Shown here piece after piece: positions 10,301 through 51,189 of a stretch of DNA of 64,000 nucleotides. Positions within the stretch are counted from its first letter, which is position 1. Every line of letters begins with the position of its first letter. A program made the position numbers and the translations under genes. This stretch comes from Sipunculus nudus (Eukaryota; Annelida; Sipuncula; Golfingiida; Sipunculidae): the NCBI GenBank assembly GCA_026874595.1, contig CM049306.1, positions 22,927,019 to 22,991,018 of the forward strand, given 5' to 3'. Below the pieces are notes generated by a model that made no database searches, was not told where the DNA came from, and saw only the letters and a list, made by a program, of their open reading frames with translations.

Positions 10301-13300
10301 TATCTGTCAACAGGGTTCAAATTGGACCTAGAATCTTCATTCTTGACACACAGGGAGACCTATGAAAAGTCTCCATGGAAACCTGAAATTAGGTCTCTGT
10401 TACCCATATCCTTTGAGCTATGGCACTCCAAAGTACAGCTCAGAATAATGGAAAATTTGATACAAAAGCTGAAGTATCTGAACAACTAATCCAGAGACCA
10501 CCATGCTTCTTTGCATGGATATTAACCATTAAGTGTTTTTATTAGTTTCTGCAGACTGGTGGAGCCACCTGTATTTTTTTAAAGTTTACGCATTTTTTCT
10601 CTATTTTTGAGATATATTAATACAGACACAATATCAGCCTGTTGGTTAATCTGTTTGATGCTTCAGTTGAATGGTTATATACTACCATTCAGATGATAAA
10701 ATTTCCTTTTGCAAATCTCTTCCCAGTCAGCTGAGCGTCATGACCAATGGGTCACTTGTCTTAGGTTTTGTGAGGGTGTATTTTCCAATAAATCTGTGCT
10801 GGGAGTATTAGATTGTCCAATATTTTCCATATTTATATAACTTGATACTTGAGTTTGTTGTACTGACAGGGTGTCTTTTTCCAGGAATGTTTCTCTTTTT
10901 AAAATTTTAACACTTTTGTGAACATTTGAATTTGAAACTCAGGGAATATGAAACCAACCATAATATAAACTACATAAAGATATCTGTACGATATAATATA
11001 TCAGGATCAGAAAAAAAAGTTTATACCTGTCTTCACTTGATCTTTTTCTGTTGTGCTGTAGTCAAGGTTCGTGTTTGATTCTAACAAGAACATATAAGAA
11101 ACCTTGCACTGTGTAAAACATTCAGGTCTTGAACAATTAAAACAGTATCCTTAAATGTGATAGTGGAAGGAGGCAAAAAGAGGAGATAACACAATTTATT
11201 TATATGCAGATGGAACCGTATATTGAGATATGGAAATAATTTCATATCCTCATTGAGAGATTGCAATAATCTCAAAACCTCTTTACTGAGAGAGATTGAA
11301 ATAAACTCAGAACCAAATTTTGAGAGATTGAAATAATCTCAGAACTTTATAATTAGAGGTTGAAATAATATAAGAACCTCATGTTGGGAGTTTGAAAATA
11401 TTTTATCTTGCTTTATCTACAGAACTAAACATGTATTATGTTTTGAAATCAGTTGTTTCTTCTTGCTGATATATTTTAAATGTGTGCTGCATATTTCTGA
11501 GAATGCTTCCACATGAAATTACTATAATTTTTCAATAATTTGAAACCTGATACACAATTTGTCCTATGCTCTTTAACAGAAAGTCGACGGGAGATTGAAT
11601 CTCTAAAGTGCCACAAGGTGGAGCTACAGCAGACATGTACAGCTGTGGAGAAAGAAAAACAAAAGAATCGTGACAATGAAGATACTATCCAGCGGCTCAG
11701 GCAGAAGTTCCAGGTAAGTACTAATTGAGTATATCCCAAATATGTATGAATATATTCACCTCTTCTTTACTCTATCACACCAAGATGGTGCCATCTGACA
11801 AAATTGAAATGTAATCCACAAGGATTGGAGCTACTCTATGTCCTGGTTGTCTGCCCTGTGTATCTCTCTTGAGCCAGCTAAATCTAAAGCAAAGGGTCAG
11901 ATACAGCTCGGTTTGGCCAAATACAGACACACAAGCATATCCTAACTGACAAGTCTTCCCTGTCCGCTCTCAGAAATTGAAAACCCACAACTGTTGACCT
12001 ACCTCACTTGCTGCCAGTTTTAACTGCAGTCCTATTTTATATAGTCCTAGTTCGTATAATTTATATATATAGTTATCTATAAATATTTTCTCAAATATTC
12101 AGTAATATCATATTTTGGTAATAAATGTGGTGGCAAAGATGCAGAACCACAGGAATACAATAACATAGTCACTGAATCACATCTAAACCTGAGCATGTTA
12201 ACTAGAGCTTTTTTCCCCAAAAATTCATTATGTTCATCTACAGTAGTGTTAGAATTCCGAATGTCCTCTGATTGAGCTGTTGAAACCTTCCTTTAGGTCC
12301 AAAGCAGATAAATATACTGCTAGGGTGTCATCTAATTTAAAGTAAACCACACGTCACCAAGCTCATTAAATCAAAATCCAAATATTACCACTTGTTTAAG
12401 AAAATGTTCACTGAAATTTCCTTTATTTCAAATTTTGCTATATGAGTAAATAATCGAATCACATCATTTACGTTTGGAATGTTAGATTATGTCTAACTGT
12501 TAATACTGAGGCTTACAGGTTAATTGGTTTCATTGTATGTTCACTGTTCATGATTTTTTTCCAGACACTGGAAGAACAAAGTAGTCACCACAAGGAGGAG
12601 TCCTTACGCTGGCAACAAAAACTGAATGATATAGAGAAAAAGAAAGAAGAGGAACTGACAGTAAGTGTGGCAAGAAGTTACACTTTAATTGATTTCTTAA
12701 ATATATAATCAAACTGGGGGATTTGCTTCAAAGCTGTTTGTGCTATGGGTTTATGTCAGTACATTGAGAGTAAGTTTTATATGATACACTTTGTGACTGT
12801 TCTATAGATCACTGAAGTATGGTCTTCATTACAACACCTGTACTAACTTATAGGAGTTGGTTCACTGTATGGGAGTCATTACAGTTGTTTAAACTAATTC
12901 TACTTTGTATGTATATATGTAATAAGAGATACAGAGATGGAATGGGAATACAGTCTGTTGATATAGACATAACACTGCCATACAGTTAAAACTGCTTTTA
13001 ATAACTGCACATATGTTATTAAAAGTTGCTATATTCTTTATTGTCTCATCATTACATGTGTACAGTGACTAGATTTTATCCATATTTCTAAGGTATTATT
13101 ATTAATCTTTGATATTCTAATTACAATGAGATTATTTATTTTCTGTACCAGAAATGGCGCAATGAGCGTGACAAGCTGGTGTCAGGTTTGGAGATGATTC
13201 TTAAACAGAAGGACAGTGAGATTCAGCAGTTAAAGAATCAGACGCAGGAATTAAAACAAAACCAGGCTTCTACTCCCAGGAAGGTTTGAATTTATAATTA

Positions 13301-28076: not shown

Positions 28077-28196
28077 CTAGAAGTTGATGACACCAAATAG
28101 AGTGGGCACCATTTTCAGAGCGTCTATCTGTGTGCTGAGTGCAGATCCAAATGCCTTCATCTGTTCAACATCTTCCTCCATCTTCTCTTGTACTTG
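28077..28196 (-). CDS. HMG20-like terminal exon with stop
   Basis: From TTTGCAG|CAAGTA at 28196 to TAG at 28077-28079. Encodes QVQEKMEEDVEQMKAFG and ends TLFGVINF. Phase 0 matches the preceding exon only if the first (5'-most) donor of the tandem array at 36652 is used. Confidence 0.75.
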   Translation of the reverse strand, partial: QVQEKMEEDVEQMKAFGSALSTQIDALKMVPTLFGVINF

Positions 28197-31100
28197 CTGC
28201 AAAGATAAATAAAACAGTTAATTTATTGTACTGTTTATCACCATGCATGATGATACAAGACTGAAACATTGTTCATTCTTTAAGACAATGAAGAGATAAA
28301 GCGTCACATTCTTAATGTTAAAAGGTATTTGGTTACTTGCGACAATATGTATTATATTCTGCTATCAGAAAAGAAACCATAAATAAATATAATAAAATTT
28401 GAATTTATGCCTGCAAGAAAATTAGCTTATAATCTTGATCGCATAATTGTGTATCACATCATGTGTCATATCATGAGTGAATTTTTACTATATCTATCAT
28501 AACCTAAGAAAATGGATCACTGCAGCCCTGGTGATCAGTAGATATGGGGCTCTTTCACCTCTAAAACAAGCGCCACTCTATTACAGGCAACAACCCAGAT
28601 CCCACAGGTATTTCTGTTTTAATAAATTCCATGATATTTACAAATTTTTAACTAGAACAATACTGACAGGTCAGGAAGGGCCCCGCTAAAGACCCATAGA
28701 CTACTAGTGTGGGTTGAGTGTTGCTTGGAAAATTATAATAAAAGACCTGATTACATGCAGAGACACAGGAAAACTGACCCAAAACAGTATTTAAACACTG
28801 AAGCAAGATGGAAAGACTGGCATAAAAAGTTTGACTTAAAATGCATTCACAACTTTTTCGAAATATGAATCCTGAGACTTTGACCTCTGACCTCACCATC
28901 CCAAAATCAATAGGGTTCTTGCTTTTTTGTGGGCCATATATATATGAAGTTTGAAATCCATATGTGAATAAAAAAAATGTGAATGGAGTTATCATCCGGA
29001 AAAGAATTTGTTGATGGGGGGACAGACAGACGGACAGGGTGATTACTATAGGGCACTATAGAAAGGGGGCATTATTATTCATGGAATAATAATTTATATA
29101 AATGGAGGTGCTTTACAAGTAATAATTTAAAAACAAATGACCCATGGGTCATGACGCTCAGCTGACTGGGAAGAGATTCGCAAAAGGATATTTTATCATC
29201 TGAATGGTAGTATATACCCATTCATCTGAAGCATCAAACAGATTAACTAACAGGCCAAAATTGTGTCTGTATTGATATATCTCAAAAATAGAGAAAAAAT
29301 GCGTAAAAAATACAAGTGGCTCCACCAGTCTGCAGAAACTAATAAAAAGACTTAATGGTCAATATGCATGCAAAGAATCATGGTGATCTCTGCATTAGTT
29401 GTTACAACTTGTGCCATGTAAACAGATGACAGCATCCTTAAAGGTCTCAATAATAGAGAAAAAAATTCGAAAAATTGAATAAAATATAGGTGGAACCACC
29501 AGTCTGCAGAAACTGATGAAACACTCCATAAACAATATCCATCCAAAGAATCATGGTGATCTCTGCATTAGTTGTTCAGATACTTCAGCTTTTGTATCAA
29601 ATTGTTCATTATTCTTAGTCCTATAGCTTGAAGGATATGGGAAACAGGGACCTAATTTCAGGTTACCATAGACACTTTTCATGGGCCTCCTTGCATGACA
29701 AGAATGCAGATTCTAGGTCCAGTTGTTATGATTTGTACCCTGTTGACAGATAACCACATCTTTAAAGGTCTCAAAAATAGACAAAAAAAATTGTAAAAAT
29801 TTGAAAAAATATAGGTGGCGCACCCAGTCTGTAGAAACTGATGGAACACCTCATGATCAATATGTATGCCAAAAATCATGACCATCAGTATTGTAGTTAT
29901 TGAGATAATGCAGTTTTTGTGTCAAATTTTTCATTATTCTTAGGGATACTTCAGAGTCCTATAGCTTAAAGGATATGGGTAACAGAGACCTAATTTCATT
30001 TTCCATGGAGACTTTTCATGGATCTCCCTGTGTGTCAAGAATGAAGATTCTAGGTCAAGTCCATACAAGTTGTGCCCTGTTAACAGATGTTCATAACTTT
30101 TAAGGTCGCAAAAGTAGAGAAAAAATTTGTAAAAAAACCCTAACAAATATACATGGTGCCATCAGTCTGCAGAAACTGATGAAACATTCCATCTTCAATA
30201 TTCATGCAAACAATAATTGAGATCTCTGCATTAGTTGTTCAGATACTTCAGCTTTTGTATCAAATTTTCCATTATTCTGAGCTGTACTTTGGAGTGCCAT
30301 TGCTCAAAGGATATGGGTAACAGATACCTAATTTCAGGTTTCCATGGAGACTTTTCATGGGTCTCCCCGTGTGTCAAGAATGAAGATTCTAGGTTCAGTC
30401 GTTAAGATTTGTACCCTATTGACAGATAACTACATCCTTAAAGGTCTCATAAATAGAGAAAACAAGGGACCCATGGGTCACGGCGCTCAGCTGATCGTGA
30501 TTGGACTATAAATGTTTCTCAACTGTGATACTATATCTAGTTGATAAAGCTTATGAATATCATGTACATGTTGGGCTATTATAAAGGAATGTAATGTAAT
30601 ATGTGAGTAAATGATCAATGAAATTACCTGACTGATGGATTAATAGAGTCAAATAAAGTGGTTTATTTTTTATTTATTTAGGAGGGGTTGAAAATTGTGA
30701 TATATTTGAGCAAATATGAATGCAATGACAGCAGTAATAAGCAGTAGTAGAATGATGATAAGGCTATTTGTTGAAGGATCTAAAGTGTATGGTAGTCTGC
30801 AAGCGTTCAATTTGACAGATATGATGTTATGATTAACTATGCTGATGAAGTGATTTATGAATATGTGACTGTATGACACAATATCTCTTTAGTCTTGACA
30901 AGGTACATTATTGTGATGCCCACTATGTCTACATATTACACAATATTGACAATTTCTGGCATGTACATAGGTTCCTATGGACGAATAGTTATACAAAATA
31001 TTAAAGTATGAATATATCTGATTCATCTTGTTCTTGCTTACTGAGGCTGACTTTGGGATGGGGTTTTGGAGAAGGGAAAAGTGAGGGCAGCATGAAGGTG

Positions 31101-34100
31101 GATGTAGAAATATTCTATTGTAATGTTTTTCATTTATATAAGAATATGAAAAGCTAAGAGAAAAGGGGCCCTCCTACTTGGTTATAGTAAAGTTCTAAAT
31201 ATATGATTGCAAACTAATACTCTGACAAGACTGTCATGAAGAAAAACAGTAAAAGTTTTGAGATACTGTGTTGCATACGAAAATTTACAGATGGACAGGC
31301 AAGTGGACAGAATGGACTAATACCTTTATTTCACTTTCAAGAGAATAATGCATTTAAGTTTATATATAATCCTATTTTTTAAGCAGATCCACTTTTTCCA
31401 TTAAGAAGTTTTTATCTGAATCATTTTTTTATTTACAGGTTTATAAATTTTTAATTAAAAAACCTGAAAATATAAGTTAAAATATTAGAATTGTTGCAAA
31501 AGTTGCAATCATTATATATACAGAGTAAAAAACATTGGGTCATATTATGCATACACATATATTTTATTATTTTTAAATCATAAATGTTTAAACTGATTTT
31601 AAAAGAAAATAATGGCACAACATGGCATCTACAAGAATATTCCTTGAATCACTATTAAAAAGTTTTGCATTTTGGAGTTTTCAGGACATGCTTAATTTTA
31701 TTCACCAAAATAAAATAAAAGTAAATTTGATAAAATAAAACATCTTTTCAAATAAAGTATACACACTGTTGGTTGAATGAGGGACAAACAATATCATTGT
31801 GCTAATTACTATCCCAGTTTTAATTAATTACTGGAATTAATAGTCAATTTCACACCTGGTGAAGTTTTTACTCTTCTGAAGTAAGGAATTACTTATCTCA
31901 TGAACATCCACACTTTCACAGCAATACACCACTTTGTGTACACAATTAAATGTACACTTTAATCATTGTAACCCTGGTGGTTCAATACAAAATCTAAAAT
32001 GTAGCATGTCCAAGAATAAAATAAAATACAGAAAAATTATAACATTCATCTAGTTTATGCACCAGCTGGGGGGGGGATGAGTGCAGGGTGAGGGGAAGCC
32101 TGCTAGTAGTGGCCAAGCTGGGCCAAGGTAAGCTGCCTGGGGTGGGTTACATAATGCAAGTGAAGGCTGTACTACTAGGTGGGCTAGATGTAAACAACAC
32201 TTGACATGGTGTATGAAAACATGAATAAAAGCTATTCATTCCAATCAATTTCTATTGAAAGTTTAGATTTTAAAAGATTAAATCCTTATGCATATATGCT
32301 GGGAAAATTAAATCAACAGTGCCAAAGTTGGACAAAATTTAAGGTATTGATTTTTTATTTATGCTAATAACTTGAAAAATTTGCAAAATTCAGATCTAAT
32401 TTTGGGTAAACAATTGAATCTTGATTAAATAAAGTTATATTCCTGTAAAAAGTCTCTAGGTTCAGCAATTCTCATGTAAGTATATATATTTCCTGATTTT
32501 TAAAAAAATTGCATTATGTTTTGGCCCATAACTTCAAAATAATACCCAATACTGACCTAATTTTTGGTATGTTCATAGAAAATGTATAAAAGAATGTGAA
32601 TACTAAATACGATCAAAAACAGATCAGTGGTTTTGATATTAGGCAGCCTTGAAGTGTAACAATGGCTTTTTTTTATGGAAAACTGAGTTTTTTTCCTAAT
32701 GTCCCAATGAGTCCTAATGAGTCCTAATTAAGTCCTAATGACCCAATTTTCGGTATGGTAGGAGATTTTGGGGATATCTAAAATTATGTCAACAGCCTGG
32801 GGAGCATAGAGATGTGCACTGAATGACCTACAGTCATCAAAGTGGACTGCTTGACAATGTAAGGGAATACAACAAGAGCCTCCAAAAAAATTCAATAACT
32901 AGCCTAATTTTGCAGCTTTTATTTTCAAATTTCAGATTTTAACAGATTAAATCCTTATGTATACATGAAAATTAAATTCACAGTACTTACAGGAAAAAAA
33001 CGTGCCATGGCCAAAATTGGGCAAAATTTAAGGTACCAATTTTATATTTTTGCCAATATTTAAAAAAATTTAACAAATTTTGATCTAATTTTTGGTATAC
33101 AATTAAATTTTGATTAATTAAAGTTGTATTACTGGAAAAAAGTCCCTACCTTTAACACTTTTGGTCTTAAGTGACCAAATATCTTCTTGATTTTTTTACA
33201 AAGTCCATTATGTTTGGGCCCATAACTTTTTTAAATTTAATAATACTGACTTAATATCTGGCATGTACATAGGAACTATATAGAGGAATATTTATGGTAA
33301 ATATGAAATAAACCAGATGAGTGGTTTTGATATTAGGCAGTCCTGAAATGTGAAAATAGATTTCTAATAAAAAATTGAGGTTTTTCCTTAATATCTCAAA
33401 GGAACGAAGTCCTATTGACCCAATTTTTGGCATGGTAGGAGATTATGGGGACATCTAACTGTATGCCGAAATTCAGATTCGTAGGTGCAACGGTGTCGAA
33501 ACGTGCCAGTCTTACGGACGGACATCCAGACGGACGGACGGACGGACGGCACGACAGACGGACGGACGACGGACAATGGACCATGACTATAGCTCAGATG
33601 ACTTATAGTCAGCTGAGCTAAAAATTATAAAAATTTGAAAAAATACAGGTGGCGCTACCAGACTGCAGGAACTGATGGAACACCTTTTGATCAATATGTA
33701 TGCCAAAAATCATGACCATCAGTGTTGTAGTTATTGAGATGTTGCAGTTTTTTTTTGTCAAATTTTCCATTATTCTGGGGGGTAATTGGGAGCCCCACAC
33801 CTCAAAGGATTTGGGTAACAGAGACCTAATTTCAGGTTTCCATGGAGACTTTTCATGGGTCTCCCTGTGTGTCAAGAATAAAGATTCTAGGTCCAGTCTT
33901 TACGATTTGTGCCCTGTTAACAAATGTTCACATTTTTAAAGGTCTAAAAATAGAGAAAACAATTCGTAAAATATCGAAAAATATAGGTGGTGCCACCAGT
34001 CTGCAGAAACGGATGAAACATCTAATGATCAATATGTATTCCAAAAATTATGACCATCAGTGATGTAGTTAATGAGATTTTGAAGTTTTTTTATGAAATT

Positions 34101-37100
34101 TTTGACAAATCTGGGGGGTACTTTGGGGCCCAATAGCTCAAAGGATTTGGGTAACGGAGACCTAATTTCTAGTTTCCATGGAGACTTTTCATGGGTCTCC
34201 CTGTGTGTCAAGAATGAAGATTCTAGGTTCAGTCTTTAAGATTTGTACCCTGTTGACAGATAACTACATCCTTAAAGGTCTCATAAATAGAGAAAAAAAT
34301 TCGTAAAAAATCGAAAAATACAGGTGGCGCCACCAGTCTGCAGGAACTGATGGAACATCTCATGATCAATATGTATGCCAAAATTCATGACCATCAGTGA
34401 TGTAGTTAACGAGATATTGAAGTTTTTGTATGAAATTTTTGACTATTCTAGGGGTACTTTGGGGCCCAAAAGCTCGAAGGATATAAGTAACAGAGACCTA
34501 ATTTCTGGTTACCAAGGAGATTTTTCATCGACCTCTCAGAATGTTAAGTTACAAGATTGTAAGTCCGGCGGTTACGATTTGTGCCAGGTTAATGGACAGA
34601 CGGACGACGGACAAAGAGTGATCGCTATAGCTCAGCATGACTGAAAGTCAGCTGAGCTAATTAAACTAGAATATGGGTAGTCCCTTGTACAAGCGACTAT
34701 GTGTATCCACCAAAATCAGAGTAGAAAGGGTGCAGTGAGGCATGGATTGAGTGGCAAGGGGAAATAGAGTGAGGTGTGTTGCATATCAGCATGGATGTCT
34801 GCATAAGTCAAACCACTACTGAGATATGAGTAATTTTAGCCCATGGCAGAAAAACAGACTGACGCTGTGCAAAAATGGTTGCTGATGGCCCCTCAAATTT
34901 TGTGTATGATAAAGAGCTATAATTGATCTATACGCATGCAAATATTTGGCCAAATCGGTCAAACGGTTCCCGAGATATGAGTTTGGATGTCTGCATGAGA
35001 AACTAGAATGTAGGTGGTGCCACCTGTCATAAAATCAAGAAAGCTGTCCAGGATGTATAAACTTGCAAAATTTTAGGCAGATGTGTCAAACCACTGCCGA
35101 GATATGAGTGATTTTATCCCAAGGCAGACAAACAGATAGATGCTGTTCAAAAATTGTTGCAGGATGCGCCACCAGTTTTGGGTATGATAAAGAGCTATGT
35201 GAGATCTATACACATGCAAATTTTGGCCCAATTGATCAAACTGTTCCCTAGATATAAGCTTGGATGTCTGCAGTGTAAACTAGAATGTAGGTGGCACCAC
35301 CTGTCATAAAATCAACAAAGCTGTCCAGGATGTATAAACATGCAAAATTTTAGGCAGATATGTCAAACCACTGCCGAGATATGAGCAATTTTATCCCATG
35401 GCAGACAAATAGACGAACGCTGTGCAAAAATGGTTGCAGGTGGTGCCACCAGTTTTGCGTATGATAAAGAGCTATGTGAGATCTATACACATGCAAATTT
35501 TCAGGAAGATACATCGAACCAGTCCCGAGATATAAACATGAATGTGAATGAAGGTGGCGCCACCTGTCATAAAATCAAGAGAGCTATCCAGGATGTATAC
35601 GCATGCCGAATTTCAGGTGAATTAGTCAAACCACTGCAGAGATATGAGTGATTTTAACCCAAGGCAGACAAACAGATGGACACTGTGCAAACATGGTTGC
35701 AGGTGGTGCCACTATTTTTGTGTATGTTATAAAGCTAACCAAGGGCTACATTTGGACAAAAAATTTTTCCTGATCAGTCAAACGGTTCCCGAGATATGTG
35801 GGTTTATATGTGGAGACAGACGCACAAATGGATGCTGGGCAGAAAGGAAAGGTCAGAGCTCAAAACAAAATCGGGATGCAGCAATTCACATGTGACCCGA
35901 ACAAAATCCCGGGTTTTGTAAAATTCCACCCAGCGGTTACAGAGGAGTTCTCTGGACATCTACGCAGCGGCGGTGGCGGTTGGCTGAAAACATAGTATCC
36001 GCAAACCTCTGTTTTGGCGGATACAATGATTGGTGAAGCAATGCATGTACAGAAAACTGACAAAAAGACAGTATGGAGCAAATATGAGTCTACAATAAAC
36101 TCTTCATTAAAGACTCTTAATATAAACATTTCAAGACTTAACCTGAGAGCAACATTTCAAAGTGACTAACTCATCCAGTGAGAGAATACCACCCACCTTG
36201 GGTGTTCTATTTTTGTGATAAGGTGTGTATTTTTTTCTCTGTTCTTTTCTACTGACTGCTTAAGTTCTCACCTTGAGATGTTCTATTTTTGTTACTAGCT
36301 GTGTATGTTTTCTCTGTATTCTTTTATACTGACTGCTGAAGTTCTCTCCTTGAGATGTTCTATTTTTGTGACTAGCTATGTATTTTTCTCTTTGTTCTTT
36401 TCTACTGACTGCTGAAGTTCTCACCTTGAGATGTTCTAATTTTGTGACTAGCTGTGTATTTTTCTCTTTGTTCTTTTCTACTGACTGCTGAAGTTCTCAC
36501 CTTGAGATGTTCTATTTTTGTGACTAGCCATGTATTTTTCTCTTTGTTCTTTTCTACTGACTGCTGAAGTTCTCACCTTGAGATGTTCTATTTTTGTGAC
36601 TAGCTGTGTATTTTTCTCTTTGTTCTTTTCTACTGACTGCTGAAGTTCTCACCTTGAGATGTTCAATTTTTGTGACTAGCTGTGTATTTTTCTCTTTGTT
36701 CTTTTCAACTGACCGCTGAAGTTCTCGGATCTCACTCTCCCTTTCTGAAAGTATGAGCAATTCAGTTAAAGGGGCTATTCCATTACGTGATGTATATGAA
36801 CTAAAGATAACCACAGAGCCTTTTATATAAATAGGCCAGATCACTGATCCCACCACACCAGGCTGTTCATGTTGTTTATATCCACGTGTTTATAACACGG
36901 GGACCCACCAAAATAATCCAAGCACATCCAACAAGGATATCTGGTGGCAACTCAGACAAACCAGAGTTTTGCAAAGGGCTTTTTGCACCCAGTGACCTTT
37001 CAATTACCTCACATATGCAACCATACACCTTAGGTTACATGACTTTCACAACATTGGCACCTGTACCTTGTTTACTAACAGCTTGTAGATAAACCAGCTC

Positions 37101-40100
37101 ATACATCCATCATAGAAGGGTTATAAGAACTTTTCTTAACATGAATTAACTACTTTTTATTAATATGTAACACAGAGAAAGCCATAAATCACACATATTC
37201 TATGGGAAGATAGGTGAATAACTGGTTTTCACAAAACAGTACAGACTTGGCATATGCTGTGATGCAAAGCTATAATGCACATAAGATCTTAAAAACATTT
37301 ATATAACAGTGAAGATGCAAATACCGTAAAATCTGTGAAATTTCGTACAGAAAAAAATAATTAAATTTGTGGAAGTCCGAAATTTAACAGTTGATTTCAG
37401 CAGTTTTAAAATTATGGTCTTGACAAGTCGGGGGTAGTGGGCGATAATAGAAGCCTCTAGTATTCACTCGCATATTTTGCATTCATCCGTGTGAACCATG
37501 AAATTTCATGAATAAAAGCATTATTTTCTATACTTGTGTTGTTTATTTTATATTATATCAGTTTGGAAAAGGAATCTGGAAATTATATCTGAAGGATTTA
37601 ATCCTGTCAAGAAGCTCGGCACCCGTACATGCTTGCGTGACATCCTAGGCTTTGCCCGGAGAGATCGTTTTTCAGGTGGCTTACGCATGGATATCCCCAC
37701 TAATGGTGCACAAAAAGCTAGAGGTCTTTAGGTCACTAAAGAGTTAAGGTACAGGTGCCAATGTTAAACTTCATGGACGTCAGCCAGCGCTTTGATATAC
37801 CGTTTGATCTCGTGTGACTTGTTTGTTGGGTGATACGGAGCCCGGGTACTCGACACTGAGTCGTTCTGGTGTGACATCCAAGACATTTATTTTAAATGTT
37901 TTAATGGAAATTAGCAATAATTTTTAAAACTAATTAACATTTTTATTACATACACCGGAGCACTGAGCTTGCTTGAAAGAGACCAATTTGAATGTGGCTT
38001 ACACACGGAAATCCCCTTTATGGTGCACATAAAGCTAGTGGTCTTGAGATCATTTACGGAGTTAATTCTTATTATCCAATTTCCAACCTCCGTCAAACTT
38101 CATGGGCATCTGTCAGTTATTCAGGGCGTGTTGCTCGCATCCCGGACAATTAATTTATTGTCACTGTAACAAAAATCTTAGTTTTCAGTCAATTTACATT
38201 CTATATGATGTAGATATTATTCATATTAATTATCAATAGCATGGCATTCACATCGATCGGACGGATAGGCTTGTTCAAATCCAGATAACAGGGTGGGGTT
38301 ATGTCAGTGTTACATTCACGGCAGTCCTGCTAACGTCAAATATGGCGTAACAGACCATCGGCAGTTCGAAATTTAACATGTCATTTTAATAAATATGGTT
38401 ACTGAAGAAAGACCGTGTACGAAATTCATCGAGGTACGAAATTTCACAGATTTTACGGTATACTGAATAACTATATGTACACTGATCTATCACACACAAT
38501 GGAGGTATCAACTTTAATCAGAAGCTTCTGGCAAATGAAGTGCTAAAGGAAGACTGAGAAACTTGATTCTTGTATAATTTTTTTTGTACAGCAACTATAT
38601 TACTTACCACAATTTTTCTCCATAAACTGTTGAATGAAGCCCTCAATGTCATCTGGACCACTACATCGAGAGCAGCCTGGCTGACCCTCCTCTGACCCAG
38701 AGGCCAGCAGGTCATTAGAGAGGTCAGAGTTCATGAGGGCTTCATTTTGTTCTTGCTGCAGTAGCTGCTGCTGGAGTTCTTTTTCATAGTCATCTAGGGA
38801 TAAAACAGGAGACATTAAACCTGAATTTACAAGATGAGCATATCAAAGCAGGAAAACTTTATTGTTAAGATTTACGTAAAATAATAGGGAAAACTTATTT
38901 GCTCCAACATTCCTTTCATCTAAGTTCACTGAAATTCATGGAGAACTTTTTGAGGCATTGTTTTGACAGACAGACACATATATTAATATATATCAACACA
39001 TAATCTCAACATTTTTGTGGGTAAATTCATTCTAGCATTGCTAGGAAAGGTTTAAGTACCTGAAAGGCCTTTATGTTTTCAGAAATAGCACCCATTGGAT
39101 TGTTCTTCTTAGATTTTCTCTATATACCATCTGGTGGTGCCATAGACGCCATTTAAAATATCAGAGTGTTATTTTTAAAACTTAATTTAAGGACAGTTTA
39201 ATACAAATCTTTAATTGACTTGTACTCATGCAATTACATATTATTGCTGAATGGTAGTTTTCCAAGAATAAGTCCATAGCCGGTAAGTAGGGATATAACC
39301 TGGAGTATGAAGAGTGCTATAGGATAAAAATGAAATACAATTATAAAGCTTTTAGCCTTTCAGGTTTTATATGCAAGATACTAGCAATAATCTAGAAGCA
39401 ATAACCTGTAATAATGACATAAGATAAATACTCTGAGGTTCTACTGAAACTTCTTATGTGCCCTTAAACTGAACACTTTAACCAATGGGGTATGTCCTAC
39501 CCCAGTTGACTGTTACTATCAAACTGTACAATTAGGCTTTACCCTGAAGCCAATGGTACTCTACTTTCTGTCATACCAAGCACATGCTTTGTCCATGATC
39601 TCCGAAAAAAAAGATTAAACGTACTTACTAACAATATTCTGCAGGTGCTGCTTGCCATAAAAGTGTTCCTTCCTGTTGTGCTGAGAGCGGAAATACATAT
39701 TGCACACCCGGCAGTAAAGGCCGTCATCCTACATGAAAATATATGTAGTCTTTTTATAAAGTAAGAAAACAGCTGAAAAGGGTTGAAGTGAATAAGTTAA
39801 ACATTGAATTTATTTCTTTTTGTCAGGATGATGTTAACTGATCATTTCCACTACATTACCAGGATTGCTGCAAGACTGGAGTATGAAGCCAAACTTTTTT
39901 ATCACTATTGCCTAACAAACAGCAGAAAAGTTATTATTGAAAAATTTTATATTTTTTGGAGTCTTATTCCAATTCTGCCAACAGGCTTATTCCAATTCAC
40001 AATTAATAAAACTCTTATTTTCCTTAGAAGCCTGAATTAGTATTAACAGACTGTTCTACCACTTCAATACACACAACCATGCACAAAATTATATTTGATA

Positions 40101-43100
40101 ATTACTGGTAATTAATTCAAAGATGACCAGAATTTGGTTGGTTTTGCAATGCAAAAGTAGATATATTGCTCCTCTTCTGATCAGCCCATAGGCCTCCCAT
40201 CCCCAAATTTGAGGAAAAAAAATCCTGACTATTTCAAGATGAAGGTTAGGGATACCCGTTTCCTAACACTTCCAAGATTTTTCCAGAAACATTTCACGTA
40301 TCAAATTTGATGATTATGAGTGGTTCAAAAGTAATAGTGTAAAGAAAATATTTCTATTTCTGCTGATATGACCTTGAAGATGAAGGTCAAGGTCACTTTT
40401 TTTAACACTTCTTAGATTTTGGCTGGGAAATTTTACAAGTTGAATTTCATGAAATTATATCAAGTGGTTTAAAAGTTTTTCAAACAATTTCTATTCCCAC
40501 TGATTTGACATTGAAGATTAAGGTCAAGGTCACCAGTTTTTTGGACTCATCATTCACCTTGGTTGAAACTGGTGTATCAAATTTGAGGGAAAAATATGCA
40601 ATTATGGGGTTCACACAAATTTTCAATTTTGGCCTATTTGACCTTGATGATGAAGGTCAAGGTCATTGGTTTCAGACTTGTCTGAGATTTTGGTAGAATT
40701 TAAATTTCATATTTCATGAAAAAATGTTGAGACTTTCAAAAGCTATCACTTTCACAAGAAATGACACAGACGACGCCAACTACGGACGACAATGACAACA
40801 ACAGACAAAACACTATATGTCTCCCCCAATGGGAGGGGAGACATAAATATAGTTTACCTCCAGATCATCAGAAAGTGCTGCTGCATCAATTTCTAGTCCA
40901 GTCCCCTCCTCTTCTGTGTAAAACATAAACACTTGTTAGGATGTATGAAGAATACAAGCCTGGTATGTCTGAAGTACATTTTATAAATATCATCATCAAG
41001 ATGCTTGAGATTTTGAGAGGTTGCTTCAGTCTATTCCTTCCAAGACCTTTATATTTACTATGAAACTGATGAAAGTAATTCTACTGATACTGAAGGTTTT
41101 ACAGATTTGGATACAAAATTTTAGTTGTTGTGTAACATATATTTTTTTTTAATTTTGGACTTGCAGTATATCATTAATGTACTTCAACAAGTGTACCAGA
41201 GCAATGATAATAAAAAATACAAATACTGAAGGCTCTGGCTATAACCAATGTGACTAATAATTACCCTGGCCATAAACAATATGATTACTGAAGCTCTGAC
41301 CATAACCAATGATCACTGATGGCTCTGGCAATAATACATATAAATGATTCCTGCCATGAATCACACACCCAGGCCAATAATCAAGAATATCAGCCCTAGA
41401 AGACAATGATATGACTTGTTGTATGGTGTACCTGATCCCATGCCGTTCTGTCTCTTTTTCTTCAGGAACTGCTGGTACGCCTTTGACTGCTGATACACCT
41501 TCAGCTCCTCAATGTAACGCTTTTTGTCCTCTTCTGCCTGGTCCAGGAATTTCTGTACACAAAATTCAATGATTAAATTAATAATTAAACTAATAAATGT
41601 CTTCTTATTTCACTTGTCTCATACTGTTTTAATCTGAAAACCCTTTGCCTATTTGCATGTTTCAGTGGATTAAGGTGCCAGTTGCATGCATTTGCCATTC
41701 TGCTAATGCTACTTTATAAAAGCATGTAAAGTAACCATGGATACAGGTGATGTCAGGAAATGGGGCAAGATGGGGCAATAATTCACATTATATACATGAC
41801 GGCTCATACTTATCACTGGAAGGGGTGTCACTTTAGTACAGGACTTATGGACATGATCTTCTTTCTTCATCCCCCCCATCCCCCTGCCACTGGTCCCTAC
41901 TAGGAGAATGCTGCAGTCTTTTTGTGCAGCTGGGTGCCTTTTTGAATACAGTTTTTGTGAGGGATCACAGTCCTTAAAGGCCCGTTTCGAAAGGCTGAAG
42001 GAGCAGACTTTATCTATATGTATGATCATTTTATTTTTTTTGTGCATTTTATCTCCTCCTTTAATTTAAAATGGTAACAAAGTCAGAACATCTGCAATAA
42101 TCCCTTTTGATTTCATACTGTTAGAAATGGCCCTAGCACACTATTATGCTGCCATCAACTAGTCAGTTTATTGCACCAGCAGCTCTGGCACATATTATCC
42201 TCTCCATTTATACATTTCAACTGGACATACATTGATAGGGATACTATAGCATTTAAATATGCAAGCATATCTTATTTATATTGGTAAGGAACTAATTTCT
42301 TGGAGTAAAGGTATGCTTAATGTACTTAAATGTATGAAAATACAGGCCTTTCAACTGGAAATGTATATGGTTAGATTTCTCTGACTTTAGTACTCCTTTC
42401 AGCATTTTCAAAGGGTATATTTAAAACAAGTCCTACCTGTTTGGCTTCCTGTGACATACTTGACCACTCATTTCCCATGATCTTTGTGATTTCAGCAAAC
42501 TGCAGCTTGGGACACCCCTGCTTGATCTCCTGTCTGCGATCAATCGAGTACAACACATACCTGCAGGAAAAACCAACATGGTCTGTACTTATACAACAGC
42601 AGTCAGCAGGTACAGATGACAACAGACATTCCAGATAATTGATGAAAATGCAATTGTACGCTAAGTTAAAACTGGTGATGGGTTTGGTTTAGTACTTGTA
42701 GACTCATCATTCTGGACAAACCTAGGGCGACTAAATTTATTTTATTTAAATAATTGTGAAATAAATACCACAAATTAATTTAGAGGAATTAATAAATACT
42801 GTCTTGGTGAGAAAAGACTGTTTCTTCAATAACCCAACAGAAATATAACAGAACAATGAACAACAGTTATAACTGCTACATTTACAAAGATTTATAAAGA
42901 ATTCAATGGTTAAGTGTGAATAAAAAGACCATGTACTAGTTTGCACCAGCAAAACATAAATGTTTGTGGCAGGGTGGATGATTAAATTAAATCAAATGAT
43001 CACTTGAGGGTAACTTAATGAGACAGGAGATAAAAATCCCCTGTCTACTCACCCACTTGCCGGGGCTTTTGGTGCATTGCTTATTTGGTCTGGTTTACGC

Positions 43101-46100
43101 TTTCTCCCTTTCGGCCAGCCACCCTTCTTTTTCTGCATCATAAATGGTACATATCTTTACAAATTAAAAACCTCATGATAATAACAAACAATATCTGTTC
43201 AGTAAAATAAATTCATCATACAGCCCAGAAAATGAATACTGGAAACTTAAACCAAATATTCTTATTTGGACCTGATCCCCCTTTTGTGGGGGAAGTCCTC
43301 ATGATCTTGGCAAGGAATTTGTTAGGCGTTTATAGATTCTTTTTAGAACTCTTCACGAATTGCATATTGTTACATGTTTTCATCTTCAGAATGAGAAAAT
43401 CAGTTATCAAAACAATACCATTATATCAGATGAGGATTCATAACCCTTACTGGTGCTGGGTCAGTATTGCGTGCAGGAACCGCTGTGGTGGTGGTGGGCA
43501 GCTGTATGTTGATGGGTGTACATCCCGTATCCACAGGCTGAGCACTCACTACTTCCCCATGATTGTCAAATAAACTGCAAGATTGGCTGTCAATCAACCC
43601 GCTGGTCGGTACCAGTAGCTGCCCTGTAGGTGGCAGCAAATAAAACATGTGAAAATCAAAGGCAGCAAAACAAAGATCACCAGAAAACATGAAAATCCCT
43701 GATTTGCTTTTAAACCTGTTTCCAACAGTAAACTATTACAAATAACTTTAACAGGGCCCATCTAAGGTGACATCAATATATTTTATGAGTTCAGAACATT
43801 ACTCATTATAAATCACCACATTTAAGTGATTGAACTGGTTAATATTAAATGTGAACAAACATTGATTATTGAACATTTATAAAACCATTCACTACTGCCA
43901 GTATAATCGGAAGTAAAAAGACTTTAACAGAAGCAAGTAAAAATGTGTTACTTTATACTTGATGATGTGCAGGGGCATCAGGTTTTTTATTATATTATTC
44001 ATATGAAAGCAAAATATTTAGATATTTAAAAAAAGGCAAAAACACAAAGAGCCTGAGTTTCAGTAAAAGAGAACTGACACAAGTACAATAACATTTGAAT
44101 TGTGATATATATGAGTAAAAAATGGGTACCTGACAAGTCTGCTGTGGACGAAACATTTCCTAGTGATACTACTTGATCTGACACTGACAGCACAAACCTA
44201 AAATCATAAAGAGAAGTCATCTTAAATGCATAAATATGTAAAGACATCAAAGGGATGAACAAAGGCAATTAAACATCAAATAATTGGTCCTTTGTTTAAG
44301 TCAAATATCTGCCATACCATAAATTAGTCCCCTAGACTGGAGCATGATGGTTTTCTAGGTTTACAGTATTTTTGCACCATCTCTGCATGTGATATTGTAA
44401 ACCAAAATGTACTATAAAAGGACTGATCCTACAAACGATTTTGCCAGGACTCAATACCTGTACTCTTAGAAGAAGACTCAAAAGAGGGGGCTAAAGCCGC
44501 TCAATATGCAGAAAGCAAAATCCTGGGGAGATGCAAAATCCTACACTGCTTTTTCTATATCACTGTATCAAAAAGATACAGGTTTCCCCAGCTTTGTTAA
44601 TAACTCATGCCTAATTAGTTAAAGGAATTTTGAAACAGTTTCTATTATCTTTCCACTGTTTTCTACATCAATCATAGATGTTCATCTAATAATGAAATAA
44701 AGACATGAATATTAATATGATTATATTTAATTCTATCATTCAATTTTTTTTCAGCTAAAGAATTTTCACATAAATATTCATTTCATTCATTTAATTTAAT
44801 AAGTGTTAATTTAGTATTAAATAATTTGAGATAATATTCATTATTATTCACACTTTAGACAAAACTGAAAGTTTCATAAATATTTTGGTTAAAATTGTGT
44901 TATTAGAAAAACAGTCCTGGCAAAGCCATAAATGATTACATAAATATACTATTTTCCATGATAAATCATACCAATAATTTATTTATTAATTTTATTAGCC
45001 CGATTCAATCGGACTCAATATTATTAGGCCCGCCATATATTGAGTCCGATAGCCATACAGTGAGAGTTACTACAATATAAGCCTCAGACTACACGCCACC
45101 CAATGCCCTTGTAACCAGTCAACAGGTGTTTATTACCCTGTGCCTGCGGTCATTCTTCAGAGCCGGGCCCGTTGAAACAAAATGTAACAACATTTTAGCT
45201 GTCAATCACTCGAGTCAGCGAGGCTATCAGGGAGGTCATCACGTGCGCCTGTTCAACCGTTCTTCTCTGTCCCTACTAAACTCGCTGACACGCCTCTAGC
45301 CCGATTTAATCAGACTCAATATTATAAGGCCCTGCCATATATTGAGTCCGATAGCTATACAGTAAGAGTTTCTACAATATAAGCCTCTGACTACACACCA
45401 CCCAATGCCCGTGTTACCAGTGTCAACAGGTGTTTATTACCCTGTGCCAGCCCATCACTCTTGAGAGCTGGGCCTGTTGAAACAAAATGTAACAGAATTT
45501 TAGCTGTCAATCACTCGAGTCATCGAGGCTGTCAGTGAGGTCATCAAGTGCGCCTATTGGACTGTTCTTCTCTGTCCCTACTAAACTCGCTGACATGCCT
45601 CTGGTAAAAAGGTCAGCGAGTATTTAAGAATGATTTTGAATTAAGTTTAATTTTAGTTGCTATCGAAACCATGAAACACATACTTATGGGTGTTAAACAG
45701 GTGTTATCCTGTGTCATGTTGTAAGGCAGTAAACAGGCAGTCAAAGAAGATGCAACGGATCTGTTGCAACTTCCGTTGCTTATATTGTAGAAACTCTCAC
45801 AGTATGGCTATCGGACTCAATATATGGCAGGGCCTAATAATATTGAGTCCGATTCAATCGGGTTACTGCAAAACAACAAGACACAGGATTATACCATTTT
45901 AACACCAATAAGCATGTGTTTCATGGTTTCGATAGCAACTAAAATTAAACTTGGATTATCATTTTTAAAAATTTACCGACGTTTTAACCAGAGGTGTGTT
46001 AAATATATAGCAGGGCCTATTAATATTGAGTCCGATTCAATCGGGCTATAATTTTATAAATCAAATTAAAACTGTAAAATTACAAATAAAGTAATTAAAT

Positions 46101-47025: not shown

Positions 47026-49564
47026 TCACATGGCACGTTTTCGGGTTTTCTTTATGGCAAAGTCATCAATTAAGTCATCAAAATTGACTGCACTGACAAT
47101 TTCAGTTTCAATGCTCATCAGGGAGAGCATACTTAGTCTCTGCTGCTGCATACAACTTCTGACTTCACTCTTTATTCTCTTCAACTTGGAGAAAGATCTC
47201 TCGCCACTGCAGTTTGACGTAAGCATACACAGATAGATACGGAGTGCAATGTGCACATTTGGGAAGCTTTGTGCACAATTTGTTTCATTAAGCAGCAACA
47301 GCATTTTTAGCTCTGGGGTTTGTTCCGTGCATTGCGTTGAGGTGTGTCCCTGTTCACTCACAGATTTAAAAAGTTCTACAAACTGAACTAACTCATTAGG
47401 GAAGCAGTCTTCAAAATCAGTTGGGTAGTCTTTCATCAAGTTTTTTGCTGCTTCTTGGGTTGCTTCACTGTCTAGCTCAGTCAAGTTTGAGAGAAATCCA
47501 AATTTCATCTCAACTTCTTGATATGCCTCTAAGCGTTGGAGAAGGGCTGAAGTCATTTTGTCAATGATAGGGAGAAACACCTCAACCCTGAACTTTTCTC
47601 TGGGCGAGAGAACTGTTTCGGCGGAGGGTCCCTCATCAAATTGTCGCTTTCTCTTTTTTTGCCGTTTGGATGATTCTTTGTACTCTTTGTCCACAGACTT
47701 TACCTTTCCCTTTTCTTCATAACGCTCGAATTCAGAACGCTGACCTTTTACAAACTCCAGAAGAGATTTCAACAAGTTTACTGCGGAGTTAAGAGACAAT
47801 CCACTCTCTTGGAGGGACAAACTTGTTTTCTGGAATCGCTCCAGGATTGTGTCCCACAATTCCAGCAGGATTGTGACTTCGAGTTGCTGAAGTTTTTTCA
47901 AAAATCCTTCGGCCTCAAGTCTGCTTTCTCTTGGTTGATTTTCGTCAGTTGCTAGATCTTCAAGTGCTGCAATGTTCTCGTTGTAGCCTCTACTTACGGC
48001 CCTAACAGCATCGTGTCGCGCTGACCATCTCGTGTCAGACAAAGCTTTGTTCACAGGTAAACCTTTCAGGTGAGTTCGATGTACCTGCCAACGATGTGTA
48101 GAGGCGACAAGCCAAGCATAAAGGCTCTGCAGAAGATCAAAAAATCCGGCTGCGACAGGACAACTTTCTGCTGCACCCTTCCCAACTAAATTCAGGGAAT
48201 GTGCTGTACAAGGTACGTAATGAGCAACACTGGCCCTCTGACGAAGAACAGCCTGGACGCCTTTATACTTCCCGCTTATGTTTGCAGCGTTGTCGTATGA
48301 CTGTCCACGGCAATCTTGTATGTTTATGCCATGTTCATCCAAGAAATTTAGGATGATATCGGCAATTTCAGACCCTGTGTGAGAGTACATTGGTATAAAT
48401 TTAATGAATCGTTCAACCGGACCAGACTTCAGAACATAGCGGACAATAACCGTCAGCTGGTCTACATGCATGACATCGGGGGTGGAGTCTACAGATATGG
48501 AGAAGTACTTTGCGGATTTGATTTCATTAATAATCACAGAGAGTACTTTTTGGCCCATCAACTGAATTACTTCTTCACAGATTGTTGAAGACAGGTATGA
48601 CGCGTGTCCACGTCCCTTGTTTGCATGCTTACTGATGTGCTCTGCAAGAAATGTGTCATATTGACTCAGTAATTCAAGTATACCAAGGTAGTTACCGTTG
48701 CTAGGAGAGCCAATAAGTTCATTCTTGCCACGAAACGAAAGACCACGAATGCAAAGGAATGACTATTCTTTGGAGAACTTGTTTCCAATATTTGACCTCC
48801 ATGTCATATTGCTTCACTAGATCACAGTCGATTTGACCAGTTGCTTTTCGCGCACATAATGCTGCCATCGCATCAAGATGCTGTTTCGAGTTTTCATGTT
48901 TTGAAAGCTGATCATGAGCATGTTTCCAATCATTGAAGCCGCTTGTAAGCTTACTCACCACAGATGACATTAACTTGCACACAAAACAATAAACACGACC
49001 ACTGGTTTTAGAATAACATAGCCAATTTCTGTCGAACTGTTCTCCTGTCCGTGCATGAACACGTGTAAACAAGGCTGAAGTACAATACCGGCGCTGTGAC
49101 TCCTTCTCCCTCTGTACCATCGATTCTTTAAATCCTTCATCTTTATGTTGACAAGAAGACGACCCACGCTGAATCCAGTAATTTCGCAGATTTTCTGGTA
49201 GTTTGTCTGGCCAAAGATGGAGATCAGTAATACAATCATCGTTAAGAGGTTGGGGAGTCTTCCTGTCACCTTCAGTTATCAAATCAGTGTCCGCCGTTGA
49301 TACAGAAGGCTTTTCCACGTCTTCTCCTGTAGAAGTCGTACCCGCCTTTTTAACAGAAGGCTGTCCCGCGTCTTCTCCTGTAGAAGTCGTACCCGCCTTT
49401 GTTATAGAAGGCTGTTCCACGTCTTCTCCTGTGGAAGTCGTGGACGTAGCTGGTTTAAAGAATGATGTTAACTTTGGAGTCTTTTCTGTAATCTCACTCT
49501 CTCGTTTCTTCTTTTCAGAGGCAGCTGCACGTTTTTGTGCTCCACTCAGATAATTACGCTGCAT
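47026..49564 (-). pseudogene. hAT transposase (ZMYM1/DUF4371-like), one frameshift
   Basis: Two frames on one strand: 49564-48719 (281 codons) and a second frame ending at 47026 (511 codons from its first ATG at 48561). The second frame is open leftwards past the stop of the first, and the homology switches frame around 48765-48785. Frame 1: basic start, three 17-residue repeats at 42-92, TTF-type zinc-binding region at about 159-200 (YCTSALF..WLCYSKTSGRVYCFVC). Frame 2: DUF4371/hAT catalytic region with SVDST (D25) and YDNAAN (D90), the VPCTAHSLNLV motif, and the C-terminal dimerisation block GERSFSKLKRIKSEVRS. Family: cut-and-paste DDE transposase. The single lesion implies recent inactivation or an assembly error. 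Confidence 0.85.
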
Positions 49565-49565
49565 T

Positions 49566-51189
49566 ACTTATCTGAAATGAAAATGAAGTGATTCATATAA
49601 AACAAGTACTGAACAGCAAATGGTCGCTTAGCAGCTTGATAACAAACTGACATTACTCTAATAGTCGTTTATTACCCAGAGAAGAAAAAAAACTGGCACC
49701 TATAGCACAAATGAACAGAATCAGGGACAGGATTTGCCGATTTGGCCTTCATTTGCAAAAAAAGGAGCGGACAAAGAGGGGAATCAAAAAACAAATAATT
49801 ATGTTTACATGGCCTAACTATACAAGTGAACAATTAACATTTTTTGTTTGGCCTAACGTTTGTGTTCCTACCCAAAGCATTTTTTTTTTGTTTGGCCTAA
49901 CGTTTTTGCTCCTACATAATGCTTCACCCCAACCAGACTAGAGTCGGATTAACAATTTAACACCTGACGCTTGGCCTGTTTGTTAACAATCAATCCGCTA
50001 CCAGTGAATAGAAAAAAACAATAAAAAACATCCTTAGTATACCTTACCTTCAGTGTTCCGAACTAACTTGGCGTAAAATCCATAAAAGTTCAGCGGTTCA
50101 GCAATCACCTCCTGCCGCCTGCATACGGAAATGTTACAAGTCGCAAGTGTACCCGTAACTTTCTCCAAAATAATTTATTCGCCCATTCTCTTCGCAGATT
50201 TTGAAATTTATTTGAATTATTTCGTTGAGACAACTTCAGACAAGTACAAAAACTCAAGAAGATCGACTGTTCATAATTTCTTAAGTGACATCGCTGATAT
50301 GATTCAAGAAAGATAAAAGTGAAATTCTGAAATGCGAAGAATCACTTTCAGCAAATACTTATAGCTGCCCGCCCGCCCAACACGTTCTCGTCCTAAAATA
50401 TGCACGGTAATTAATGCAGACAACGGGTGCGAACGTGGATTTGTCATGGTCTCCTATACAGAGACAGTGTATAATATAATTATTTTTGGTATTTAACAGG
50501 TAATGCCAAGACGAGTGATAAGCACATTCATAAATTAGTTGGAAATTAGAAACAATAACATAGAAACAGAATACAGCAATTAAAACACTGGTCCCAAGTT
50601 ACTTCGCGCCAAAAAGACGCGTTTTGTCGGACGCTAAAACGTTTGAAGATGCTTAGTATATCTGACATGTATACTTTGCAAACGCATTTCCACCATTACG
50701 CATGCATATCTCGTGTCTGAAAAACTTGGTTGTCAGCTATCTTGCTGTCTTGACTAATTATTGTGTGTGTGTAGGTGCGTGAGTGTGTTAGTATGTGTGG
50801 TGGTTCACCGGGGGTTGGGGGGGGGGGGGGGGGGGGGGAGGTGAGCTGGTTGCCACACGACAGTACCACATCTGGTCAGTCAAAGCTCACGCTCAATCTT
50901 AGGTTTTATTATGAAACGGCTTTTTATTATCGAGTATTGACAGACCTTCAGTATTGTCATTTTGTCAAGGGGAAGGTATTTTGAAAATGTCAATATTAAA
51001 TCAATTTAAATGTTTTGGGTTTCATCCGCCCGCACCGCAATAATGACAATCGGTATCTGTCCTTGTTTATTAAATAAATCTAGCAATAAATTTGTTTTAC
51101 ACACATTTTTTTTTCTTAAATTTGGGGGCCCCCCTAACAGCGGGGGCCCCTGGCTGCAGCCCCTTCAGCCCCCCCTTAATCCGCCTCTG
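49566..51189 (-). other. Non-coding 5' part of the hAT element
   Basis: Holds a poly-G tract at about 50817-50839 and a GGGGGCCCC..GGGGGCCCC stem near the terminus (51124-51150). No coding frame of note. Confidence 0.6.

Follow-up and report, generated by a model that had tools for sequence, protein, structure and literature searches.

The window (the whole stretch of 64,000 nucleotides of Sipunculus nudus DNA analysed here) carries on its minus strand an HMG20-like gene. Six coding exons were assigned to it, running in frame from 43132 down to 28077 (two junctions computed, the rest placed by eye). The exon KKKGGWPKGRKRKPDQISNAPKAPASG (43053..43132) leads into an HMG box, the middle and the 3' part of which are encoded by the exons at 42437..42560 and 41432..41552, respectively; the boundaries of these three exons were set by eye. 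The next coding exon (38608..38820, 5' boundary by eye) ends with TTGTG|GTAAGT. It is followed by a 92-nt exon (36653..36744; ERESEIRELQRSVEKNKEKNTQLVTKIEHLK including the split first codon), which is entered through the acceptor TTTCAG|AAAGG, continues the phase of the upstream exon ending at 38608, and encodes the first half of a coiled coil. The second half is found in the last exon (28077..28196), which begins in phase 0 at the acceptor TTTATCTTTGCAG|CAAGTACAAG and runs to the stop codon (TAG, 28079-28077). Counted from the first of the donors described below, the last intron (28197..36652) measures 8.46 kb. The first-pass annotation had joined a coiled-coil exon end to an acceptor at 28196, and reading through both exons indeed gives a continuous phase-0 coiled coil.

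The HMG box encoded by the three exons matches Pfam HMG_box (6.1e-16). Among PDB sequences it is matched best by 2crj (SWI/SNF-related subfamily E member; E-value = 2e-21, the next being 3e-16), which we take to be the SMARCE1-related protein HMG20B. These two results agree with the description of the gene as HMG20-like given earlier. As in the HMG20A/HMG20B family, the box is closest to the HMG20 type and is followed by a C-terminal coiled coil, which shares 29% identity over 62 residues with that of a second, more canonical HMG20-like gene in the genome (L010; contig C4, 47713500-47722900). The E-value of this coiled-coil match is 6e-6 when L010 alone is searched and 1.39 genome-wide; the HMG boxes of the two genes match with an E-value of 2e-16 and 54% identity. 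A PDB search with the coiled coil gave nothing convincing (best E-value 0.038). The conserved tail that follows the coiled coil in the family was not found: the host gene terminates with ...LFGVINF, and a tblastn search of the window with the tail exon of L010 returned no credible match (best E-value 0.20). The coiled coil of L010 lies undivided in one exon, with a phase-1 acceptor as in the array-bearing gene. The array-bearing intron is thus not common to both genes, and may have been gained in the one or lost in the other. Nine matches were obtained in the genome: seven are the exons and array copies of the locus itself, one is the HMG20-like gene on C4 and one is a weak match on contig C15 (E-value = 0.18). 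No processed retrocopy of the gene was recognised among them.

The end of the 92-nt exon is amplified in tandem. On the minus strand, from 36725 to 36194, seven 76-bp units lie head-to-tail at the end of the coding exon, each composed of the 73 nt of the exon end and 3 nt of the intron, so that every unit holds an exon end together with a splice donor. The copies are near-identical: TRF, run on the window, reports a 76-bp array at 36194-36726 with 7.0 copies, 93% matches and a score of 917, and a separate repeat search of the window gave the identical register. Compared with itself at offset 76, the array shows an identity of 0.82; across 1000 mononucleotide shuffles, the highest value at offsets 60-89 was 0.41, which excludes chance. 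The similarity to the exon starts at 36725 and stops at the GTG of donor 7. Five unit ends read CTCAAG|GTGAGAACTT, one reads CTCAAG|GAGAGAACTT (copy 5) and one, that of the last copy, CCCAAG|GTGGGTGGTA. The array is genuine, a minisatellite astride the exon-intron boundary of an HMG20-like gene. The first-pass annotation had reported such a 76-bp tandem repeat of exon end and donor, and both TRF and the offset-76 identity bear it out. Its limits (36265..36744) need correction: the far end is at 36194, not 36265, and 36744-36653 is the exon, within which the repeated unit begins only at 36725. A DNA search of the 1.43-Gb genome (153 contigs) with the array gave one match, a single match being no proof of rarity; a mobile-element origin was rejected on this same result, to be read with the same reserve. 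Rfam gave 0 matches at gathering thresholds.

All copies are on the minus strand. Copy 1 (36650..36725) comprises 73 exonic nt and the GTG of donor 1 (36652). Copy 2 (36574..36649, donor 2 at 36576) is the same as the array consensus. Copy 3 (36498..36573, donor 3 at 36500) shows 2 changes and carries a TAG at 36556-36554, copy 4 (36422..36497, donor 4 at 36424) shows 1 change, and copy 5 (36346..36421, donor 5 at 36348) shows 2. Copy 6 (36269..36345, donor 6 at 36271) is 77 nt long with 5 changes including a one-base insertion, and copy 7 (36194..36268, donor 7 at 36196), the most diverged, is 75 nt long with 8 changes including a one-base deletion. Pairwise, copies 2-5 differ in 1-3 aligned columns; relative to copy 2, copy 6 differs in 5 columns and copy 7 in 8. 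The purine fraction is 0.66-0.70 in each copy. Copy 1, the only one that codes, departs from the consensus at 3 sites and is free of indels. In the frame of the gene these differences are GTT/GTA and ATT/ATA, both synonymous, and one R/Q replacement. The pattern of divergence would fit purifying selection on copy 1 alone, with tests that are not significant either for the number of changes in copy 1 versus copy 7 (3 vs 8, P = 0.23) or for the synonymous share in copy 1 (2/3, P = 0.12).

Five of the seven donors (1-4 and 6) are identical, AAG|GTGAGA, with donors 2, 3, 4 and 6 equal to donor 1 at every position from -3 to +6. Donor 5 is dead (GAGAGA), and donor 7 reads CAAG|GTGGGT. The +1 sites listed earlier (36652, 36576, 36500, 36424, 36348 and 36271) are correct, 36348 being a GA, as is the count of five intact donors and one mutated. 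All six donors then recognised are present, but the seventh, at 36196, had been overlooked. With a matrix of human donor-site frequencies, donors 1-4 and 6 score 10.7 and donor 7 scores 9.8; the 5 other donors assigned to the gene score 3.9-9.5 with the same matrix, so that donor 1 is already as good as any. The donors follow each other in steps of 75-77 nt, and at twice that distance across the dead donor 5. Exons of 92, 168, 244, 320, 473 and 548 nt would result from the use of donors 1, 2, 3, 4, 6 and 7, respectively.

As far as length is concerned, donors 4, 6 and 7 (+228, +381 and +456) preserve the phase as donor 1 does. The TAG at 36556-36554 comes before these donors and terminates every product of donors 3-7, so that the full protein can come from donor 1 only. 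The statement that donor 1 alone keeps the frame is therefore right for the full protein and wrong for the phase, and the stop said to lie near 36552, ahead of the later donors, is precisely this TAG. The frameshift ascribed to donor 2 was computed: the last 39 residues are swapped for 35 frameshifted ones, with a stop 32 nt into the last exon. No junction lies downstream of that stop, so the donor 2 mRNA probably escapes nonsense-mediated decay (NMD). Under the 50-55-nt rule established in mammals, the donor 3 transcript, with its stop 53 nt ahead of the last junction, would be on the edge, and the transcripts from donors 4, 6 and 7, with distances of 129, 282 and 357 nt, are probable NMD targets. 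The earlier mention of truncated or NMD-targeted products had omitted both the escape of the donor 2 mRNA and the borderline position of donor 3. The closest downstream AATAAA/ATTAAA in the intron is at 33241, which is not close, and gives no sign of intronic polyadenylation near the array.

We favour, with a probability of roughly 0.68, the reading that the array is a minisatellite at the boundary and is tolerated because the first donor in the row, donor 1, is intact, with possible length-dependent leakage to the donors behind it. The similarity to the exon extends from AGAACTTC (36725) to the GTG of donor 7, and the simplest history would therefore be a single GTG-to-AGAACTTC duplication. 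One tandem duplication would have joined the first 3 intron bases after CAAG|GTG back to AGAACTTCAG within the exon. Such a join would turn a GTGGGT donor into GTGAGA, at least its equal by the matrix scores, at exactly the same codon, and with the donor rebuilt there the exon, the frame and the protein would be unaltered while the old exon end stayed spliceable. The extra copy and the old donor would then have become intron. As the exon similarity halts exactly at donor 7, the ancestral donor is probably this one, and donor 1 is probably the duplication junction that restored a donor in register. Alternatively, GTGAG may have been the ancestral donor, with a later mutation at the end of copy 7. 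The near identity of copies 2-5 and the divergence of copies 6-7 suggest that the middle of the array was homogenised or expanded later, by unequal exchange or slippage, as its far end decayed. The mRNA would most probably be made mostly from donor 1. Donor 2 may be used now and then, in which case the second half of the coiled coil would be replaced by the frameshifted residues ending in the last exon. Donors 3-7, if used, would lead to the stop in copy 3, with NMD likely from donor 4 onward. If this history is right, a donor may be rebuilt by the duplication junction itself where the exon used to end, so that an array of this sort can begin harmlessly.

The human CBS gene contains a 31-bp VNTR, which was reportedly first described by Lievers in 2001. 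It is designated c.1444_1467+7(16_21) and lies at the boundary of exon 13 and intron 13 (PMC2630376); taken at its word, the variant name describes 16-21 units, each with 24 exonic and 7 intronic nt. The Sipunculus array belongs to this kind of repeat, which was thus known before. In both, the 3' end of an exon is repeated in tandem together with its donor, the unit (31 and 76 bp, respectively) is not a multiple of 3, and units of constant length differ by single substitutions. They differ in proportions, the array having 73 + 3 nt in 7 copies. The CBS repeat, moreover, is proven to be polymorphic in people, whereas the array is known from one assembly. For CBS, more repeats reportedly go with lower activity and higher homocysteine (PMC5188458; PMC1395315), while the array is known here from its sequence. 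The earlier remark that a coding exon rarely seeds a minisatellite is fair, with the proviso that the CBS repeat spans such a boundary in the same way.

Another CBS variant, c.844_845ins68, is also a short tandem duplication across an exon-intron junction. It consists of one duplicated intron-exon junction, without an array, and yields normal mRNA, one copy of the splice site being preferred (PMC2630376). The 15-bp VNTR of MIR137HG is comparable in that its length has been linked to the use of alternative 5' splice sites (PMC6692358), but those donors lie downstream of the repeat, outside the repeated unit, and the donors of the array lie inside it. Our literature search on boundary minisatellites led to CBS and MIR137HG, and no further case was recognised among the papers that it listed.

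That donor 1 dominates is conjecture. Donor 1 is favoured by defining the 92-nt exon and by a strength equal to any; it is disfavoured by the identity of donors 2, 3, 4 and 6, each of which has its own purine-rich copy upstream. SRSF1 is described as pushing the choice of 5' splice site to the intron-proximal competitor, and hnRNP A1 is cited for the opposite shift, to the intron-distal one (PMC5585400). The preference of SRSF1 would move splicing off donor 1. A doubtful alternative, still deserving consideration, is that the array is a leaky splice-choice element dependent on copy number, in which equal donors, each with an enhancer-like purine tract of its own, compete for U1. Longer arrays would then mean more use of donors 2-6 and less full-length protein, donor 2 giving a truncated protein from an mRNA that escapes NMD. 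The presence of five strong donors of identical sequence, four of which lie within 228 nt and give exons of 92 to 320 nt, would suit such an element, as would the position of the donor 2 stop past the last junction, that of the donor 3 stop being 53 nt before it. The lower CBS activity reported with more 31-bp repeats (PMC5188458) and the correlation of MIR137HG repeat length with alternative donor use (PMC6692358) point the same way. In addition, HMG20B mutants without the coiled coil failed to pull down LSD1 (PMC7613766). By analogy with the human protein, whose coiled coil binds LSD1, the donor 2 product would keep the HMG box and lose the recruiting part; for the host protein, which is divergent, a role of the coiled coil in LSD1 binding is a guess from the human case.

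Against a leaky element stand the dead donor 5, the decay of the distal copies and the behaviour of the donors themselves. Outside copy 1, only 1 of the 18 changes falls in the nine donor columns, where 2.1 were expected (binomial P = 0.36), so that no special preservation of the donors is seen, in a test whose expectation of 2.1 could hardly reveal a mild one. Between the two readings offered in the first-pass annotation, a splice-choice device and a minisatellite tolerated because the first donor wins, these three observations lend better support to the second. Improbable to our mind is the bolder proposal that the array is a length-tunable bank of donors, through which the level of SR proteins and the number of repeats would dose an LSD1-recruiting HMG20-like protein, the donor 2 form being stable, NMD-escaping and dominant-negative, with the HMG box and half of the coiled coil. 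The array may have a function beyond being tolerated, but its sequence does not call for one.

It is very improbable that the array reflects the gain or growth of an intron by tandem duplication of an AGGT-containing exon segment (the Rogers model), with 76-nt units removed between neighbouring AG|GT sites. The model draws on the AAG|GT present at 6 of the 7 unit ends, on L010, in which this intron is missing and the coiled coil runs uninterrupted behind the same phase-1 acceptor, and on fission yeast genes in which multiple tandem exon copies with AGGT are spliced as introns (PMC4974935). The array resembles those cases in that a piece of exon is repeated in tandem, with AG|GT at the junctions. 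In those cases, however, the duplicates create a new intron, whereas the 76-bp array lengthens the 5' end of an existing one, and its unit shows no strong acceptor. In the 19 positions before each of the 78 array AGs there are never more than 9 pyrimidines; the two real flanking acceptors have 12 and 14. The longest pyrimidine run does not separate them (4 in the array, 4 and 5 at the acceptors), and the test is moderate evidence only. Recursive splicing, or splicing of 76-nt introns inside the array, is not favoured by the same counts, the pyrimidine runs falling short of a firm exclusion. The acceptor of the last exon shows no visible similarity to the unit, which argues that the array did not create the intron. 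Least credible is an assembly artefact, or a degenerate gene free of constraint: repeat arrays are prone to assembly errors, but the copies have private differences, two opposite one-base indels are present, the six coding exons are in frame and the HMG box matches HMG20-type structures.

The locus offers a natural series of donors ahead of one acceptor; up to six of these may be functional, and five are identical. The series resembles the constructs with which the choice of the spliceosome among equal 5' splice sites is probed. If relatives or individuals differ in copy number, it would provide a ready non-human test of copy number against splicing.

Other repeats occur in the window. An abundant interspersed repeat occupies about 35740-36030, with at least 39 other long matches at 89-91% identity in the genome (40 of 5945 candidates scored). 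Its matches begin at about 36035-36026, which is some 160 bp beyond the far end of the array, and it is therefore not part of the array. The last intron of the HMG20-like gene also contains long tandem repeats at 29403-30462, 33620-34528 and 34803-35737, and another lies at 9297-10612; their units measure 277-338 bp. On the plus strand, a 44-bp array of about 50 copies (4111-6305) begins 50 nt past a coiled-coil exon donor, AAG|GTGGGT (+1 at 4061). Its consensus unit contains TTCCTGCTATAACT/AGGTAC, a pyrimidine-led AG|GT, and CTAGGTA[CT] occurs 32 times in 4111-6305, and by these motifs the 44-bp array resembles a tandem series of recursive-splice-like sites. Finally, hAT-type transposase-like frames lie on the minus strand at 47026-49567, with Pfam matches to DUF4371 and Dimer_Tnp_hAT in 47026-48762; the frame beside the hAT-like one (48719-49567) includes a 51-bp tandem repeat in three copies at 49291-49441.
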